A stretch of 25,762 bases of DNA from a virus, in the IMG/VR virus record IMGVR_UViG_3300036759_000100, positions 1-25,762 of that record. One strand, written 5' to 3'. The notes under the pieces are model-generated. The model saw only the letters and a list, made by a program, of their open reading frames with translations, searched no databases and was not told the origin of the DNA. Each line of letters starts with the position of its first letter. Within the stretch, counting starts at the first letter, position 1. Shown piece by piece: positions 3,997-20,666 of the stretch. Position numbers and translations under genes: made by a program.

Positions 3997-4000
3997 GCCG

Positions 4001-4030
4001 TTGCGACCTGTCCCGCGCGTTCGTTAGCCT
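4001..4030 (+). promoter_or_regulatory. Candidate promoter ahead of the ParB-like gene
   Basis: TTGCGA (4001-4006), 18 bases, then TAGCCT (4025-4030) fits an actinobacterial sigma-A promoter, in which TAnnnT is the main -10 requirement. Transcription would begin near 4037 and leave a short leader with GAGGAGG before ATG 4069. The -10 lies inside the left arm of an imperfect inverted repeat, GTTAGCC (4023-4029) and GGCAAAC (4034-4040), that resembles one in the portal promoter. Confidence 0.45.
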
Positions 4031-4040
4031 TTCGGCAAAC
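4023..4040. promoter_or_regulatory. Candidate operator, site A
   Basis: An 18-bp inverted repeat, GTTAGCC-N4-GGCAAAC, has one mismatched pair. It covers the -10 hexamer of the promoter at 4001-4030. It has the same length and the same outer half-sites as site B at 6038-6055, with 12 of 18 positions identical. This spacing over a core promoter suits a dimeric repressor. No regulator is assigned; the winged-helix protein at 22427 is one candidate. Confidence 0.4.
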
Positions 4041-4068
4041 CTGCCTGGACGCAACCGAGGAGGACGAC

Positions 4069-5520
4069 ATGACCGAAGTAACTGGCACGGGCCGCATCCA
4101 GCGACCGGCCTCGAAAGACCTGCGCGCGCTCAGTCGGCGCTTCAAGCAGGGGTTCCGCTGGAAGCCGACCAGGGGTGGGCACTGGCGCCTGGTCGATCGA
4201 AACGGCCACTACGTCGAGCACGGCGGGACGGTCATCACCGTGAGCGACAACCCGAGTCCCGGAGTGCTGCGAGCCGTGACCGACGAGCTTCAAGAGGCGC
4301 GCGTCTTGAAGGGGACGCGGCAGCGCGACATCAGCCGCGCCGATCTCAAGCGCCGAGGCGACGCTTACCGCGAGATGGCCGCCGCTCGCGACGCGCGGCG
4401 GCAGGAGGTCGCCACCGATCGGCTCAAGCGGTACGCCGCTGTGCTCAAGCCGATGGGCGGCGTCCAGACACCAGGGCTGGCGATTGAACTCGGCGCCGCC
4501 GGGATGGTCGTCGCGCGCGAAGACTTCGGCCGTGAACTCGGCCTCGACCTGCTGCAACAGAACGCGCGCCGCGTGCTCACGGGCGGCTGGGTCGAGGATC
4601 GCTACGGCGAGATTTGGGACGCGATGCTCGACCGGCTGGAGCGCGCACCGGACGCGGTCGGCGAGTGGTTCACGCTGATCCGCGAAGGGCGCGGTCTGCC
4701 CGCTGACCACGTCGAGGTGCGACTGCCGAAGGGTGCGCAGGACGACTGGCCGTTTGACGTCAAGCTGCTGCCGCTCGACGCGCTGTTCGCCGATGAGACC
4801 TACCAGCGCCCGATCAACTGGCCGTTCGTGCGCAAGGAGGCGGCGCGCTTCGATCCGTCGCTCGTCGGGACGATCGACGTCGCCCAGCGAGGCCCGGCGC
4901 AGTTCGCGATCCTCGACGGCCAGCAGCGGCGGGAGATCGTGCGGCTCGCCGGGAAGACGACGCTGTTCGCTTCGATCTACGTCGGTCTCGACCTCCCGAG
5001 TGAGGCGCGCTTCTTCCTGCACAAGAACCGCGATCGCCGCAACGTCCACCCGTACTACACCTACCAGGCGAAGCTGACCGCCCGCGACCCGGCCGCGCTC
5101 GGGATCGAGGACGTTGTCAGCAGGTTCGGCTATAAGATCGCCATCGGCGCACCGCGCGGTGGCGAGATGCCAGACAACATCGCGGCGATCGCTGCCGTCG
5201 AGATCGCCTACGGCCTCAAGCTGCCCGACGGCAGTGACGCGCTCACGCCCACCCTGGCGACGATGCGGGAGGCGACCTACGGGCGCGCGCTTGGCAACAG
5301 CGCCGCCCTGATCCGAGGCCTCGCGACCATCTACGCCGCCGAGAACGGGCAGCTGGGCAACGTCGATCCCGAGCGAATGGCGAAGGCGATCCTGGGCGTC
5401 GGTCCCGAACTGCTCGTCGGCCGCGCGCGCGACGTCGTCCGCTCCTCGGGCGGGCAGGTCTACCGGCGGATGGTCGATGTGCTGATGAGCGAGTACCAGA
5501 AGGCCGGGCGGTCGAAGTGA
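4069..5520 (+). CDS. ParB-like (DUF6551-type) protein with HicA-like N-terminal domain
   Basis: This 483-residue protein starts at ATG 4069 with a strong GAGGAGG site. Residues about 22-80 (GFRWKPTRGGHWRLV…, SDNPSPGVLRAV) resemble the HicA-like RNA-binding fold in phage proteins: a G.H strand followed by a GxLR helix. Residues about 231-345 hold a ParB/sulfiredoxin-like domain: ADETYQRPINW, FDPSLVGTIDVAQRG, ILDGQQRREIVRLAG and FFLHKNRDRRNVHPY. The middle is charged and helical. ParB-fold proteins of this group sit in many actinophages without a proven role; DNA binding or CTP/ATP-dependent action is possible. It heads its own transcription unit between terminase and portal. Confidence 0.7.
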   Translation: MTEVTGTGRIQRPASKDLRALSRRFKQGFRWKPTRGGHWRLVDRNGHYVEHGGTVITVSDNPSPGVLRAVTDELQEARVLKGTRQRDISRADLKRRGDAYREMAAARDARRQEVATDRLKRYAAVLKPMGGVQTPGLAIELGAAGMVVAREDFGRELGLDLLQQNARRVLTGGWVEDRYGEIWDAMLDRLERAPDAVGEWFTLIREGRGLPADHVEVRLPKGAQDDWPFDVKLLPLDALFADETYQRPINWPFVRKEAARFDPSLVGTIDVAQRGPAQFAILDGQQRREIVRLAGKTTLFASIYVGLDLPSEARFFLHKNRDRRNVHPYYTYQAKLTARDPAALGIEDVVSRFGYKIAIGAPRGGEMPDNIAAIAAVEIAYGLKLPDGSDALTPTLATMREATYGRALGNSAALIRGLATIYAAENGQLGNVDPERMAKAILGVGPELLVGRARDVVRSSGGQVYRRMVDVLMSEYQKAGRSK

Positions 5521-5711
5521 TCCGCGTCGAGATCCAGAACGATCAGTCGGGCGGCGTCGAGCACGCCAGCTACGACGTGAGCGTGACGCTTCCCGAGCGC
5601 GGGCGCCCGGTCACCTACGCGGCGCGAGTCGAAGGGTTCGAGCGCGGGCGCGGCTGGGGCGATCTGGTCCGGGAAGCGATCGCGGCGCTGGAGGCGGCGG
5701 GTGTCCGGTGA
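5517..5711 (+). CDS. Small protein of unknown function
   Basis: This 64-residue product starts at GTG 5517 in a GTGA overlap and ends in another. The sequence alternates beta-like stretches (MIRVEIQND, YDVSVTLPERG, VTYAARVEGF) with a final amphipathic helix (WGDLVREAIAALEAAGV), suggesting a compact alpha/beta fold. I recognise no family. Coupling on both sides and normal GC-rich third positions support it as a real gene. Confidence 0.65.
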   Translation: MIRVEIQNDQSGGVEHASYDVSVTLPERGRPVTYAARVEGFERGRGWGDLVREAIAALEAAGVR

Positions 5712-5893
5712 GCGCGCCCGCTGAGATTACGCGCGAGGAGTGGTGGCGCGAGTACGCGGCCTGGCAACTTGGGCACCGTGACGGCCCGGTCTGCGTGCGC
5801 TGTGGCGCGACCATCCCGGTCGAGCGCGTGATGCCGTGGTGCCTATGCGAGCCGTGCGAGGCGATTGACGAAGTGATGCGGGAGGTCGAATGA
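5708..5893 (+). CDS. Small zinc-ribbon protein
   Basis: This 61-residue product starts at GTG 5708 (GTGA overlap). An aromatic, acidic helix (REEWWREYAAWQLG) precedes CVRCGATIPVERVMPWCLCEPCE, five cysteines in which CVRC and one of the two later pairs can form a four-cysteine zinc site. Its role is unknown. It is one of several tiny cysteine-pair proteins in this genome. Its stop overlaps ATG 5890. Confidence 0.65.
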   Translation: MSAPAEITREEWWREYAAWQLGHRDGPVCVRCGATIPVERVMPWCLCEPCEAIDEVMREVE

Positions 5894-6150
5894 GTGACGA
5901 CAGCTACGCGCTCTGGCATCTGCGTGAGGTCGCCGATCGCGCGATGAGGCCTGTAGGATCGCCGAGTGTCCGCGCGTCCGGGCAGGACTGCGGCCAGCAC
6001 GACGATGCGGGAGGGCGGCTGCGGTCGCCCTCTCATCGTTTGCACCCTGGCAAACGGGCCGTAGAATCTGACCATGCGGCTTCGTCGTCGCCGCGAGCCG
6101 GTTCTCCCCGAAGCGGTCAACGCAGTACCGCCGACCTACGCGACGTTTGA
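5890..6150 (+). CDS. Doubtful small ORF running into the portal gene
   Basis: ATG 5890 is coupled to the preceding stop (ATGA) and the first 20 codons look coding (MSDDSYALWHLREVADRAM). Beyond about 5950 the frame crosses a -10-like box, a strong hairpin and the portal promoter, turns into serine/arginine-rich sequence, and overlaps the portal gene by 77 bases. Either a real short gene has lost its stop codon to the regulatory island, or the 3' part is chance read-through. I consider only the 5' third likely to be meaningful. Confidence 0.3.
   Translation: MSDDSYALWHLREVADRAMRPVGSPSVRASGQDCGQHDDAGGRLRSPSHRLHPGKRAVESDHAASSSPRAGSPRSGQRSTADLRDV
5954..5966 (+). promoter_or_regulatory. -10 box positioned for a start at 5966
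   Basis: TAGGAT (5954-5959) is preceded by G and followed by six bases and then G of a GTG at 5966, which is where +1 should fall. No good -35 is visible, which is common in actinobacterial promoters. It is the same arrangement as the portal promoter 108 bases downstream. It would drive a short RNA ending at the hairpin 6002-6039. Confidence 0.4.
5966..6041 (+). ncRNA. Possible short untranslated RNA or leader peptide ending in a hairpin
   Basis: Transcription from the -10 box at 5954 would give about 75 nt ending with the stem-loop 6002-6039 and TTT. The same RNA could start translation directly at GTG 5966, giving 32 residues and stopping at TAG 6062-6064, which is part of the next -10 hexamer. 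No known RNA family is recognised. This is an inference from the positions of promoter and hairpin. Confidence 0.25.
6002..6041 (+). terminator. Hairpin terminator ahead of the portal operon
   Basis: An outer stem ACGATG (6002-6007) / CATCGT (6034-6039) and an inner stem GAGGGCG (6011-6017) / CGCCCTC (6026-6032) form 13 pairs around a small internal loop and an 8-base loop, followed by TTT (6039-6041). The T-run is short, but actinobacterial terminators often lack one. It would end the transcript of the ParB-like unit, or the short RNA begun at 5966, before the portal promoter. Confidence 0.55.
6038..6055. promoter_or_regulatory. Candidate operator, site B
   Basis: GTTTGC (6038-6043) and GCAAAC (6050-6055) form an inverted repeat, extended by one C/G pair on the outside (6037 and 6056). 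It overlaps the -35 (TTGCAC, 6040-6045) and spacer of the portal promoter. It shares length and half-sites with site A at 4023-4040. A repressor bound here would block the head and tail operon. As RNA it could also form a small hairpin. Confidence 0.45.
6040..6074 (+). promoter_or_regulatory. Portal operon promoter with leaderless start
   Basis: TTGCAC (6040-6045), 16 bases, then TAGAAT (6062-6067), a five-of-six match to TATAAT. The last T at -7 places +1 exactly on the A of the portal ATG at 6074. There is no Shine-Dalgarno sequence upstream. Together these indicate a leaderless mRNA, a mode common in actinobacteria. Confidence 0.6.
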
Positions 6151-7309
6151 GGACTTCCTCGGACACGCGCTGAGGAACCGCGCCGACGGCTGGTTCGAGT
6201 CTCTGCTCGGCTACCGGGGTGAGCAGGTCGGGACGGTCGATCGGTGCCTGCAGCTGAACTCGCAGCAGATCGCCTCCATGCCGCTGCGCTACCGGCATTC
6301 CGAGGCGACCTCGGCTGACCGGCCAGCCTGGGTCTCGGACCCCGACCCGGCCTGGTACCCGAACGGGATCCACGATGCGATCTTCGCGGCGATCTGGTCG
6401 ATCTACGCGCAGGGGGAGGCCTTCCTGTACGTGACCAGTCGCTACGCCGACGGCTACCCACTGACCTGGACGCTGCTCGACCCGGTGACGATGAAGGTCG
6501 AAGACGAGGGCGGGATGCGCAGCTACCAGTCCAACGGCTTCGACCTCGACCCCGGCGACGTGATCCAGGTGATGCGCGACCCGACCGGCGCGCTACGCGG
6601 GCGCCCCTCGCTGGAGGCGTACTGGTCGAACGTAAGCTCGGCCTACGCGGCCGACAACTACGCGGCCGATGTCTACTACTCGACCGGCGTCAACCGGATG
6701 GCGCTCAAGTCCTCGCGGCGGCTCGACGCCGAGCAGGCGGCGGCGATCCAGGCGCAGTGGGTAGCGGCGGTCTCGAAGCGGCTCGGCGCGCCCGCGATCA
6801 TCCCGCCCGATCTCGAACTGCTGCAGGCGCTGACGATCTCGCCGAAGGACATGATGCTGCTGGAGTCGCGCGACTGGGACGCGCGCCAGATCGCCGCCGC
6901 CTTCGGTGTCCCGGCGATCCTGCTCAACATCCCGGTGTCGGGAGGGCTGACCTACCAGAACCCCTCGATGCTCGCCGAACTCTGGTGGCGGACCGAGTTG
7001 ATGCCGACGGCGGTCAAGCTGCAGGAGGCGCTGAGCCGCTGGCTACCGCGCGGGCACTGGGTCGAGTTCGACCCCTCGGCCTCGATCCGGCCCGACCTGC
7101 AGACGCTCGTCGCGATCTACTCGAAGGCGCTGGCCGACGGCGCCGTCACCGCCGACGAGTACCGCGCGGCGGTCTTCGACCTGCCGCCGATGCGCGAGGG
7201 CGACCAGGCGGCCGACTACTACGAGGAGGCCGGGACGCACGGCTCGATCGGCTCGACGCCGACCGCGCTTGACGCGGCTCTGCCCGAGGAGGTGTTGACC
7301 CCGCCATGA
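6074..7309 (+). CDS. Portal protein, HK97-type
   Basis: This 411-residue protein matches phage portals of the HK97/SPP1 group. It has an N-terminal region entering with YRGEQVGTVDRCLQLNSQQIASMPL, a central TWTLLDPVTMKV…, PGDVIQVMRDPTGALRGRPSLEAYW, then AQWVAAVSKRLGAPAIIPP, a clip region, and ARQIAAAFGVPAILLNIP ahead of YQNPSMLAELWWRTELMPTA. Twelve copies form the ring through which DNA enters and leaves the head. ATG 6074 is chosen because the -10 box puts transcription start on this base; there is no ribosome site. The gene overlaps the protease (ATGA at 7306). Confidence 0.94.
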   Translation: MRLRRRREPVLPEAVNAVPPTYATFEDFLGHALRNRADGWFESLLGYRGEQVGTVDRCLQLNSQQIASMPLRYRHSEATSADRPAWVSDPDPAWYPNGIHDAIFAAIWSIYAQGEAFLYVTSRYADGYPLTWTLLDPVTMKVEDEGGMRSYQSNGFDLDPGDVIQVMRDPTGALRGRPSLEAYWSNVSSAYAADNYAADVYYSTGVNRMALKSSRRLDAEQAAAIQAQWVAAVSKRLGAPAIIPPDLELLQALTISPKDMMLLESRDWDARQIAAAFGVPAILLNIPVSGGLTYQNPSMLAELWWRTELMPTAVKLQEALSRWLPRGHWVEFDPSASIRPDLQTLVAIYSKALADGAVTADEYRAAVFDLPPMREGDQAADYYEEAGTHGSIGSTPTALDAALPEEVLTPP

Positions 7310-7887
7310 GCGAGGAGACCAAGGTCATGCGGCGAACGTTCAGCGCGCCGCTGGAGACCGACGACGAGGGACGGATCGTGGAGGGGTGCATCGTCCCCTA
7401 CGGCGAGGCGCAGAAGGTCTCGGACGGCGGCGCGCCCTACTACGAGGTGTTCGAGCCGGGCGCGTTCGCCAAGCAGCTGCGCGCGGCCGACAGGATCGAG
7501 CTTCGCTACGAGCACGGCGAGGAGTTGGCCGACTCGGTCGGGGTCGGCCGCTCGCTGGTCGAGCAGGCCAACATGCTGTTCGGCTCGTTCAGGATGCACC
7601 GCAGCGCGTTCGGTGACCAGGCGCTTGAACTGGTGCGCGCCGGGGTCTTGCCGGGATTCTCGATCGAGTTCTCAGACCGCTTCACGCACTGGCGCAAGAA
7701 CGCGGCCGGGGCGATCGTGCGCTCGAAGTGCATCCTGCACTCGGTCGGCCTCGTGCGCGTCCCCGCCTACGACACGGCGCTGGTGACCGCCGTTCGCTCG
7801 CGCGCCGAGTTGCTGCCCGACGTCGAGCTTCCCGAGATCGAGGCAGGGCAACTGGACCGCTTGCGCGCGGTCGGGATCGAGGTCTAA
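7306..7887 (+). CDS. Prohead protease (HK97 family, peptidase U35)
   Basis: This 193-residue protein starts at ATG 7306, coupled to the portal. It has the family layout: FSAPLETDDEGRIVEGCIVPYG at the front, FEPGAFAKQL, the catalytic histidine in LRYEHGEELADSVG (His70), the nucleophile in GVLPGFSIEFS (Ser119), and SVGLVRVPAYDTALVTAVRS near the end. The enzyme matures the prohead by removing the N-terminal delta domain of the capsid protein encoded next. A 139-base gap with repeated 10-mers follows. Confidence 0.94.
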   Translation: MSEETKVMRRTFSAPLETDDEGRIVEGCIVPYGEAQKVSDGGAPYYEVFEPGAFAKQLRAADRIELRYEHGEELADSVGVGRSLVEQANMLFGSFRMHRSAFGDQALELVRAGVLPGFSIEFSDRFTHWRKNAAGAIVRSKCILHSVGLVRVPAYDTALVTAVRSRAELLPDVELPEIEAGQLDRLRAVGIEV

Positions 7888-7900
7888 GCTTCCAGCAGAA

Positions 7901-7993
7901 CGGCACCCCGCAGCGGCACGCGGACACCGGCACCCCGTAGCGCGCAGAGCGGCACCCCGGACACCGTCACATAGCCCGCACGGCGGCACCCCG
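7901..7993 (+). repeat. Four direct copies of CGGCACCCCG
   Basis: Perfect copies lie at 7901-7910, 7928-7937, 7950-7959 and 7984-7993, with steps of 27, 22 and 34 bases. GGACACCG also recurs at 7922 and 7958. I found this 10-mer nowhere else in the window. The repeats fill the gap between the protease stop and the capsid ribosome site, where no frame looks coding. The role is unknown: a protein-binding array or RNA leader controlling capsid expression is possible. Confidence 0.75.
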
Positions 7994-8026
7994 TCGAACT
8001 CAATCGACGCGTGAGGAGTGATCCCC

Positions 8027-9289
8027 GTGGGCAACCCCGTCCTGCAGCGCCTGGTAGATGAACGCGGCCAGACGCAGGAGAACATCGACCGCATCCTGGA
8101 TCGGGCAAACGAGGAGGAGCGCGACCCGACCGAATCCGAGCGCGAGCTGATCGTCAGCCACCGCGCCCGGCTCGACCAGCTGGAGCCGATGATCGGCGAG
8201 CTGCTGGAAGTCGAGGAGACTCGCGGCAAGGCGAAGGACGCACGCGCGGCGCTCAGCCGCACCCGTCGCGGCGAGACGACCGAGGGCGACGGCAACGGCG
8301 ACGAGGGCGGCGACGAGGGCGGCGACGAGCCGCCGGAGGGCGAGTACCAGACGTTCGCGCGCTACGCGCGTGACGTGATCCTGACCCGCTTCAACCACAT
8401 CGGCGCGACCGTCCCGGTCCACCAGCGCCACCGGGCGCAGGAGCGCCTGCAGCGCGCCGTGCAGCAGGTGCTGACCGCCGACGTCGGCCCGCTCGTTCAG
8501 CCCCAGTACATCGCGCAGATCATGCAGGTGATCGACCGCTCACGGCCGCTGGTCGATGCCTCGAACCGCGTCACCCTCTCCTCGGGCAAGCTGGAGTGGC
8601 CGCAGATCACCGAGCGCCCGAGCGTAGGCGAGCAGGCTGCTGAGAAGACCGAGGCGGGCGACGGGACGCTGACGGTGGACGTCCTGAGCACGGTCGCGAA
8701 GACCTACCTGGTCGCCGCGAACTTCTCCTGGCAGACGGTCCAGTGGTCGAACCCGGACGCGATGCGGCTCTGGTTCGACCTGGCTGCCGCCGACTACGCG
8801 AAGAAGACCGACGCCGCCGCAGCGGCGGTGCTGGCCGCCGCCGACACGACCCCGACCGCCGTCGCCAGCAATGACCTCGAAGGCTGGATGGCCGCGATCG
8901 CGACCGCCTCCGGTGAGGTCTACGCGAACACCGGGCGCTTCCCGAACGCGATCGCCGCCAACCCGGCGGACGGCTTCGGGCTGCTCGGCCTGGTCGCCCA
9001 GGTCGCGCCCGTCTTCCTCTCGACCGGCGCGGGCGACCTCTCCACCGGCAGCTTCCCGCCCATCGGCGGGCTGCGCTTCATCGCCTCGGCTGGCCTCCCG
9101 GCCGGGACCGTGATCGTCGGCGACTTCTCGACGCTGCTCTGCGCCGAGACCGCTGGCGCTCCGGTCGAGCTTCGCGCCGTCGAGCCGTCGATCGGCGGAA
9201 TCGAAGTCGGGATCATCGGCGCCTTCGCTGCTGCGATCACCGACCCCGGCGCCTTCGCCGAGATCACCGCCCCGGCGGTAGGGCCGTGA
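8027..9289 (+). CDS. Major capsid protein, HK97 fold
   Basis: The product is 420 residues from GTG 8027. GTGAGGAG ends eight bases upstream, which favours this over GTG 8018, which directly abuts it. Residues 1-85 are a charged coiled coil (QENIDRILDRANEEERDPTESERELIV…), the delta/scaffolding domain expected to be removed by the protease. A Gly/Asp/Glu linker (about 86-106, encoded by a repeated GACGAGGGCGGC) separates it from the capsid core: PLVQPQYIAQIMQVIDRSRPLVDASNRV, WPQITERP, KTYLVAANFSWQTVQWSNPDAM and GGLRFIASAGLPAGTVIVGDFS. This is the shell subunit. Confidence 0.95.
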   Translation: MGNPVLQRLVDERGQTQENIDRILDRANEEERDPTESERELIVSHRARLDQLEPMIGELLEVEETRGKAKDARAALSRTRRGETTEGDGNGDEGGDEGGDEPPEGEYQTFARYARDVILTRFNHIGATVPVHQRHRAQERLQRAVQQVLTADVGPLVQPQYIAQIMQVIDRSRPLVDASNRVTLSSGKLEWPQITERPSVGEQAAEKTEAGDGTLTVDVLSTVAKTYLVAANFSWQTVQWSNPDAMRLWFDLAAADYAKKTDAAAAAVLAAADTTPTAVASNDLEGWMAAIATASGEVYANTGRFPNAIAANPADGFGLLGLVAQVAPVFLSTGAGDLSTGSFPPIGGLRFIASAGLPAGTVIVGDFSTLLCAETAGAPVELRAVEPSIGGIEVGIIGAFAAAITDPGAFAEITAPAVGP

Positions 9290-19227: not shown

Positions 19228-19469
19228 AGACCTCGAAGAAGTTTCACCTGACGCCCGAGGCGCGCGACGAACTGCAGGCGGTGCTCGATGCGGAGGCGCG
19301 GCGGCTACTGGCCGCGACCCTCGACCGTGACCCGGTCCGGCCCGCGCCCCGGCGCCACCGTCGCCCGCGCCACGACCGCGCGAATCACGCCGCGCTTGCC
19401 GTCGAAGCTGAGGCGATCCCAGTCCGCCGCCGTCGTGACGGTCACGTCCGGCGAGGTCAGGGAGACTAG
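19224..19469 (+). CDS. Small gene whose 3' part runs antisense through the integrase end
   Basis: GTG 19224 is coupled to the previous stop, with GAGGAGGG six bases upstream. The first 35 residues (KTSKKFHLTPEARDELQAVL, DAEARRLLAATLDR) look like a genuine helical protein. From about 19305 the frame is the complement of the integrase C-terminus and turns into arginine/histidine-rich sequence until 19469. Either a short gene was fused to chance sequence when the integrase module joined here, or the true end was lost. The overlap of 165 bases between convergent genes is unusual in this compact genome. Confidence 0.45.
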   Translation: MKTSKKFHLTPEARDELQAVLDAEARRLLAATLDRDPVRPAPRRHRRPRHDRANHAALAVEAEAIPVRRRRDGHVRRGQGD

Positions 19470-20666
19470 GCGCTCGTGTTCGCTCGCCGCCTGATCGCGC
19501 TGCGCTTGGAGTTCGTCCAGGGTCTCCTTGGTCGCCTCCTCCCCGCCGAGACCCGCGAGCGAGCGGATGGCGTTCGCGAGCCGCGTTTCCGTATCGACCT
19601 TCGCGAGCCGAGCGGCCTCCAGTTCGGCCTTGGCCGAGGCGCGGCCAGCGACCTCGCCCGAGAGGCGGATCGCCTCCTCGCTAACGGCCTGCTCAGCGAC
19701 GTCGCAGGAGACCATCGGCGCCGCCTCGCAGAGCCGGTCGCCGCAGCGGTAGTAGGCGTACTGCTTGCCGTTCGCGTGGTCGCGAACGTCCACCGTCATG
19801 CGAGCGCCGCAGGCCTCGCAGACCAGAACGCCGAGCCGGGCGAGCAGGCGCGGCGAGCGCGCCTGACGCCCGCGCGGCGCGCGCGTGGAGTTCAGGCGCC
19901 GGTAGGTCGCATGGTCGATCAGCGGCTCGGTGATCGCGTGCAGGTTCGGCGTGAAGTCGCCGAAGTGGATCTCCCCGACCAACAGCTTCGAGGCGAAGGT
20001 GCGCTGGACGCGAGCGGGCGTCATCGGGATGCCGCGCTCGGTCAGCCAGCGCGCCAGCTGCGTGTAGGAGGCGGCTGGCGTCGCCAGCCGCATCTCGATC
20101 GCCTTGCGCAGCAGCTTCGCCTTCGGCGGGTCAAGTTCGAGCGTCCCGTCCTCGCGCCGCCGGTAAGCGGCGGTGATGCGCGGGAAGGGCGGCACGCCCT
20201 TGTCGATGTTGCGCTGCTTCGAGACGGCCGTACGCTCGGCGGTCGTCCGCGCGAAGTATTCGGCGAAGGCGGCGTGTTGGGTCGAAGACAGCCAGCCGAT
20301 CGCCGTCCCGTTCGAGATGTCGCCGAGGTCGAGCGTCACGACGTTGCCGCCCTTGGCCTCGACCCGGTCGAGCACTTCGTCCTTGACCTTCACCGAGCGG
20401 ACGAAGCGGTCAAAGTAGGCGGCCATCAACAGGTCGGCTCGCCCGGCCTCGATGTCGGCGACCGCCTGCTTGAGACCGTGCCTGCGGTCGAGCGGGCGAC
20501 GCCCGCTCACGTCTTCCTCGGTGTAGACCTCGACCAGATCGGCGCCTGCCCGCTCGCACTCAGCGCGCATGCGCTCGATCTGGTCGGGGACGCTCATCGA
20601 GCCGTCGTTGACGCGCGACTGGCGCGCGACGCCGACGACCCTGCGGCCAGAGAGAGACGACGTCAT
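19305..20666 (-). CDS. int: Large serine integrase
   Basis: This 453-residue protein is on the reverse strand, from ATG 20666. The resolvase domain begins VVGVARQSRVNDGSMSVPDQI, with nucleophile Ser17, and continues with YTEEDVSGRRPLDRR, ADLLMAAYFDRFVRSVKVKDEVL and a recombinase domain (PPFPRITAAYRRREDGTLEL, ARVQRTFASKLLVGEIHFGD). The zinc ribbon has Cys282, Cys285, Cys307 and Cys312 (CEACG, CGDRLC), followed by a coiled coil at about 335-405. This is the full layout of large serine recombinases that integrate phage DNA at attB without host factors. It marks the phage as temperate. The ribosome site GAGGAGG lies inside a 12-codon leader ORF. Confidence 0.96.
   Translation of the reverse strand: MTSSLSGRRVVGVARQSRVNDGSMSVPDQIERMRAECERAGADLVEVYTEEDVSGRRPLDRRHGLKQAVADIEAGRADLLMAAYFDRFVRSVKVKDEVLDRVEAKGGNVVTLDLGDISNGTAIGWLSSTQHAAFAEYFARTTAERTAVSKQRNIDKGVPPFPRITAAYRRREDGTLELDPPKAKLLRKAIEMRLATPAASYTQLARWLTERGIPMTPARVQRTFASKLLVGEIHFGDFTPNLHAITEPLIDHATYRRLNSTRAPRGRQARSPRLLARLGVLVCEACGARMTVDVRDHANGKQYAYYRCGDRLCEAAPMVSCDVAEQAVSEEAIRLSGEVAGRASAKAELEAARLAKVDTETRLANAIRSLAGLGGEEATKETLDELQAQRDQAASEHERLVSLTSPDVTVTTAADWDRLSFDGKRGVIRAVVARATVAPGRGPDRVTVEGRGQ

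Follow-up and report, generated by a model that had tools for sequence, protein, structure and literature searches.

The portal gene of the soil phage analysed here would open its head/tail operon as a leaderless mRNA, transcribed from a promoter whose -10 box TAGAAT ends six nucleotides before the start codon, an account that we regard as the best full explanation of the locus, with a probability of about 0.8. That the portal message opening this operon would be leaderless or nearly so is well supported. The window, an IMG/VR virus record of which the whole stretch of 25,762 nt was analysed (positions 1–25762), has a GC content of 71%. Its ends adjoin each other in the related contig L003, where 58 nt separate the matches, and lie close together in L002, and the record thus appears to be nearly one complete circular unit. 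A serine integrase on the minus strand (19305–20666, phrog_95) suggests that the phage is probably temperate, and homologues of the portal, the large terminase subunit TerL and the serine integrase are found mostly in actinophages, with Mycobacterium, Rhodococcus, Arthrobacter and Microbacterium as hosts, from which we infer an actinobacterial host. A search of the window against Rfam returned a single chance match.

The portal protein of 411 residues (phrog_12, 4.9e-43) is encoded on the plus strand at positions 6074–7309. Its ATG, the A of which is the predicted transcription start, is preceded by the box TAGAAT (6062–6067) and the six nucleotides CTGACC, and a -35-like hexamer TTTGCA (6039–6044) is located upstream of a 17-nt spacer. 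When positions 4000–9000 were scanned for sigma-70 promoters, this TTTGCA-17-TAGAAT arrangement was the single site detected, with 0.2 expected. The motif TANNNT occurs 13 times on each strand of the window, and three of the 13 plus-strand copies are followed at 6–8 nt by ATG, GTG or TTG, namely the boxes at 5954 and 6062 and a third that opens a frame of eight codons; no called gene of the window other than the portal carries such an element. No GGAGG-type Shine-Dalgarno (SD) sequence is found 5–12 nt upstream of the portal ATG, as the sequence-only reading had remarked, and strong AGGAGG-type sites precede many other genes of the window, such as those at 4069, 11663, 16055 and 23135. The choice of start codon is backed by an alignment of eight portal proteins, in which M1, R2, R6 and R7 of an MR...RR amino terminus are invariant. 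The same reading had taken the head/tail operon to be probably translated from a leaderless mRNA, which would hold for the portal as the first cistron and fails for the genes downstream: the following gene starts at 7306, inside the portal stop codon, and later ones have SD sequences or four-nucleotide overlaps of start and stop.

Evidence for the leaderless portal start comes from relatives collected by portal-based searches, which comprise three close contigs (L002, L003 and L004), with 94% portal identity to the window and identical to one another across 201 aligned bases, and nine deep lineages whose portals are 62–67% identical to that of the window, where measured. Searches with exact DNA patterns yielded no near copies beyond the three close contigs, and searches of genome contigs by protein and profile yielded no prophage relatives. 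With the window and the nine divergent lineages counted as ten portal loci, TANNNT precedes the portal start by 6–8 nt in eight. The boxes read TAGAAT-6-ATG in the window, TAGACT-6-GTG in L006, TAGGCT-7-ATG in L007, TATGGT-7-ATG in both L009 and L011, TAGTAT-6-ATG in L010, TATCTT-6-ATG in L014 and TAAGAT-8-ATG in L021, and the two remaining loci, L005 and L019, contain boxes with one mismatch (CAGAAT-6-GTG and CATACT-8-ATG). The 8-nt spacing in L019 and L021 leaves room for a leader of one to two nucleotides. None of the upstream sequences inspected in these relatives shows an SD before the portal start, and the -35-like hexamer is poorly kept in the deep lineages. The conservation of the distance between -10 box and start codon, for which an alignment of related phages had been suggested as a check, is thus borne out at the portal.

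Whether such boxes could be AT-rich hexamers that arose by chance at high GC content is a question that these counts address directly. Dinucleotide shuffles of each upstream region give a probability of about 5e-13 for at least eight of ten loci with the motif at 6–8 nt, a value that ignores shared ancestry and is for that reason too small; L007, L009 and L011 clearly have upstream sequence in common, and the remaining upstream region has diverged. As control, the non-portal genes of these loci, about 113 in number, include just one with TANNNT at such spacing, a TerL (the tally itself gave 116 genes and four cases, of which three were portals predicted from a start further downstream). Taken together with this control, the comparison across lineages rules out a chance origin of the box at 6062, and we consider chance as an account of the boxes highly improbable, tenable for the one at 5954 alone.

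The organization of the surrounding genes bears on a second alternative, in which the portal would be translated from a longer mRNA that begins at the 5954 box or reads through from the packaging genes; its ribosomes would stop at UAG 6062–6064 and restart nine nucleotides further on at AUG 6074, with TANNNT being incidental. In the window clade, TerL is located upstream of the portal and co-directional with it, the two being separated by small genes, and the distance from UAG to AUG is kept in L002–L004, both of which are consistent with such coupling. In eight of the deep relatives, however, a TerL-like ORF (tested in L007, where it matches phrog_9) is divergent from the portal on the opposite strand, with 21, 25, 26, 36, 36, 36, 62 and 74 nt between the two start codons, and the portal would therefore be fed by no co-directional gene, yet the -10 box is still found at 6–8 nt, as it is in the window clade. 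The weak coding character of the 32-codon frame that ends at this UAG and a strong hairpin standing in between also argue against coupling, which we judge unlikely. That TerL might itself be a second leaderless gene in the divergent relatives was also considered and rejected, since TANNNT at 6–8 nt from its start was found only in L014, where TerL lies elsewhere (4592–6049, minus strand) and has its own leaderless-type box TAACGT-6-GTG. In the distant cultured relatives MooMoo, Dylan and prophiGD91-2, the portal closely follows TerL and is preceded by a GGAGGT-like SD, the portals of distant cultured mycobacteriophages being 28–34% identical to that of the window; the leaderless arrangement thus appears as a feature of the uncultured clade.

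A similar arrangement is found further upstream, where a -10-like box TAGGAT (5954–5959) is followed by CGCCGA and by GTG 5966, the predicted start of transcription from this candidate second promoter and the first codon of a 32-codon frame on the plus strand (5966–6064) whose coding status is doubtful. As had been claimed, the spacing is exact and the same at both boxes, with six nucleotides between box and start codon, and the stop codon of the frame, TAG 6062–6064, does coincide with the first three bases of TAGAAT. To the latter we attach little weight, since, where a frame is open, a -10 box that begins with TAG has a one-in-three chance of being in register to end it. The upstream promoter may nevertheless be real and leaderless, with tandem promoters producing either a small RNA for a 32-residue peptide or one ending at the hairpin at 5997–6043, with or without effect on the portal, a proposal that is compatible with a leaderless portal message and that we hold as tentative, with the odds somewhat against it. 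In L002–L004 the box reads TAAGAT, with the 6-nt spacing, the GTG and the frame retained, and the underlying G-to-A change removes an SD-like AGGA and spares TANNNT. By hand count, three codons of the frame differ, two of them synonymously, and mycobacteria have many small leaderless ORFs (PMC4633059). Against this stand the restriction of the comparison to just two distinct sequences, that of the window and that shared by L002, L003 and L004, the lack of a recognisable -35 element for the 5954 box, and the absence in deep relatives of any counterpart of the frame, in place of which a different gene lies upstream. The codon score of the frame, -0.32 per codon, lies between the +0.60 of genes and the -0.97 of wrong frames and is below every sampled 32-codon window of trusted genes and above about 97.6% of wrong-frame windows. 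The geometry suggested for a leaderless start at this box stands and is retained in the close contigs, and a second leaderless gene here is a weaker proposal than that at the portal, given the two distinct sequences, the missing -35 and the poor coding score. An overlapping ORF of 86 residues (5890–6150, plus strand) was rejected as the real gene across the promoter, with all six codon differences between 5953 and the portal ATG being non-synonymous by hand count and a weak codon score; its first 20 or so codons have a counterpart in L002–L004, and its later part, which runs through the promoter and the portal start, is probably not selected as protein.

The region between the boxes contains further candidate regulatory elements. 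Positions 5942–6073 are 95% identical to L002 (125/132), towards the top of the values found for its flanks. Of the folds predicted here, a large GC-rich hairpin at 5997–6043 on the plus strand (-32 kcal/mol, z -5.0), which overlaps the -35 hexamer, is the only one to survive the comparison with L002, where its z is -5.5. The hairpin is not followed by a U-tract, and a scan of 4000–9000 found no canonical intrinsic terminator; it is possible that it acts as a terminator-like insulator. A cloverleaf-like fold of 5966–6070 (z -3.6) was discarded, its closing stem and small arm being lost in L002, which folds differently. An operator-like dyad, GTTTGC-N6-GCAAAC, covers the -35 hexamer and the spacer (6038–6055, plus strand), and a second 18-bp dyad, GTTAGCC-TTTC-GGCAAAC, precedes the SD-led gene at 4069 (4023–4040). 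In both, the differences in L002–L004 are confined to the centre, and both may serve as operators. Two further repeats were noted at portals of deep lineages: in L019, a dyad GTTGCC-N6-GGCAAC (5962–5979) is located upstream of the portal start in a layout like that of 6038–6055 in the window, and in L005 a perfect 8-bp inverted repeat, CTGGTCAT/ATGACCAG, spans 1585–1620, with its right arm abutting the portal GTG. The elements of the window could in principle be combined into a nested switch, in which a leaderless 32-codon leader stops inside the portal -10 box, nine nucleotides before the portal AUG, and its ribosomes choose between the 5997–6043 hairpin and one at 6037–6056, which have GUUUGC in common, with restart on read-through mRNA and leaderless initiation on fresh portal mRNA. 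We view this elaboration as improbable, and slightly more so than simple coupling.

In the mechanism that we favour for the leaderless portal message, host RNA polymerase would recognise a sigma-70/SigA-type promoter, with TAGAAT 6062–6067 placing the first transcribed base at the A of ATG 6074. A -10 box that ends 6–8 nt before the start codon would place it at that codon or within about two nucleotides, and the message would therefore be leaderless or, in some relatives, carry a leader of up to two nucleotides. 70S ribosomes would bind the 5'-terminal start codon directly, independent of SD pairing, and the remaining genes of the operon would be translated by way of internal SD sequences and overlaps of start and stop codons. 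The dyad over the -35 hexamer would probably be bound by a regulator and the hairpin would probably shield the promoter from upstream packaging genes.

These properties closely resemble what has been described in actinobacteria. In M. tuberculosis, TANNNT is centred 7–12 bp upstream of most primary transcription start sites and 26% of the genes with a primary start site are leaderless (PMC3898074); in high-GC actinobacteria, leaderless starts are preceded at about 12 bp by a TANNNT signal (PMC3160421); and in mycobacteria a 5'-end ATG or GTG is necessary and sufficient for translation (PMC4633059). The portal shares with such genes the TANNNT core, the distance between -10 box and start, the lack of an SD, the ATG or GTG start and the weak or absent -35 element (PMC3898074, PMC3160421), and it appears to match a leaderless TANNNT gene in every feature that can be tested by sequence. 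It differs in being one structural gene of an uncultured phage, kept across lineages and with a predicted start of transcription. The possible short GTG-initiated ORF at 5966, directly upstream, recalls the small leaderless ORFs preceding operons in mycobacteria (PMC4633059). Among phages, leaderless divergent promoters (PL1/PR2), with the first base of the start codon as predicted start of transcription, were proposed for the Cluster O mycobacteriophages Corndog and Dylan, in which the -10 box of another promoter, PL6, is TAGAAT as in the window; in contrast to the case described here, PL1/PR2 are located about 5 kb from the left end and the portal of Dylan has an SD (PMC4351075). A leaderless promoter was also predicted for gene 90 of Adephagia, in a similarly compact regulatory region where the neighbours of the leaderless start are a putative terminator and a promoter that bears inverted repeats, although this is a toxin-antitoxin locus and not a head gene (PMC11373665).

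Leaderless phage promoters have thus been predicted before, and the present case is of note for the conservation of such an arrangement at one structural gene across lineages. The clade would provide a conserved example in which a leaderless mRNA opens a structural operon of a phage, an arrangement kept while the gene upstream switched its orientation. As leaderless and SD-led messages are not handled alike, the clade may offer a comparative test of why phages use leaderless starts, be it for regulatory reasons or as a consequence of a compact divergent promoter that leaves no room for a leader.
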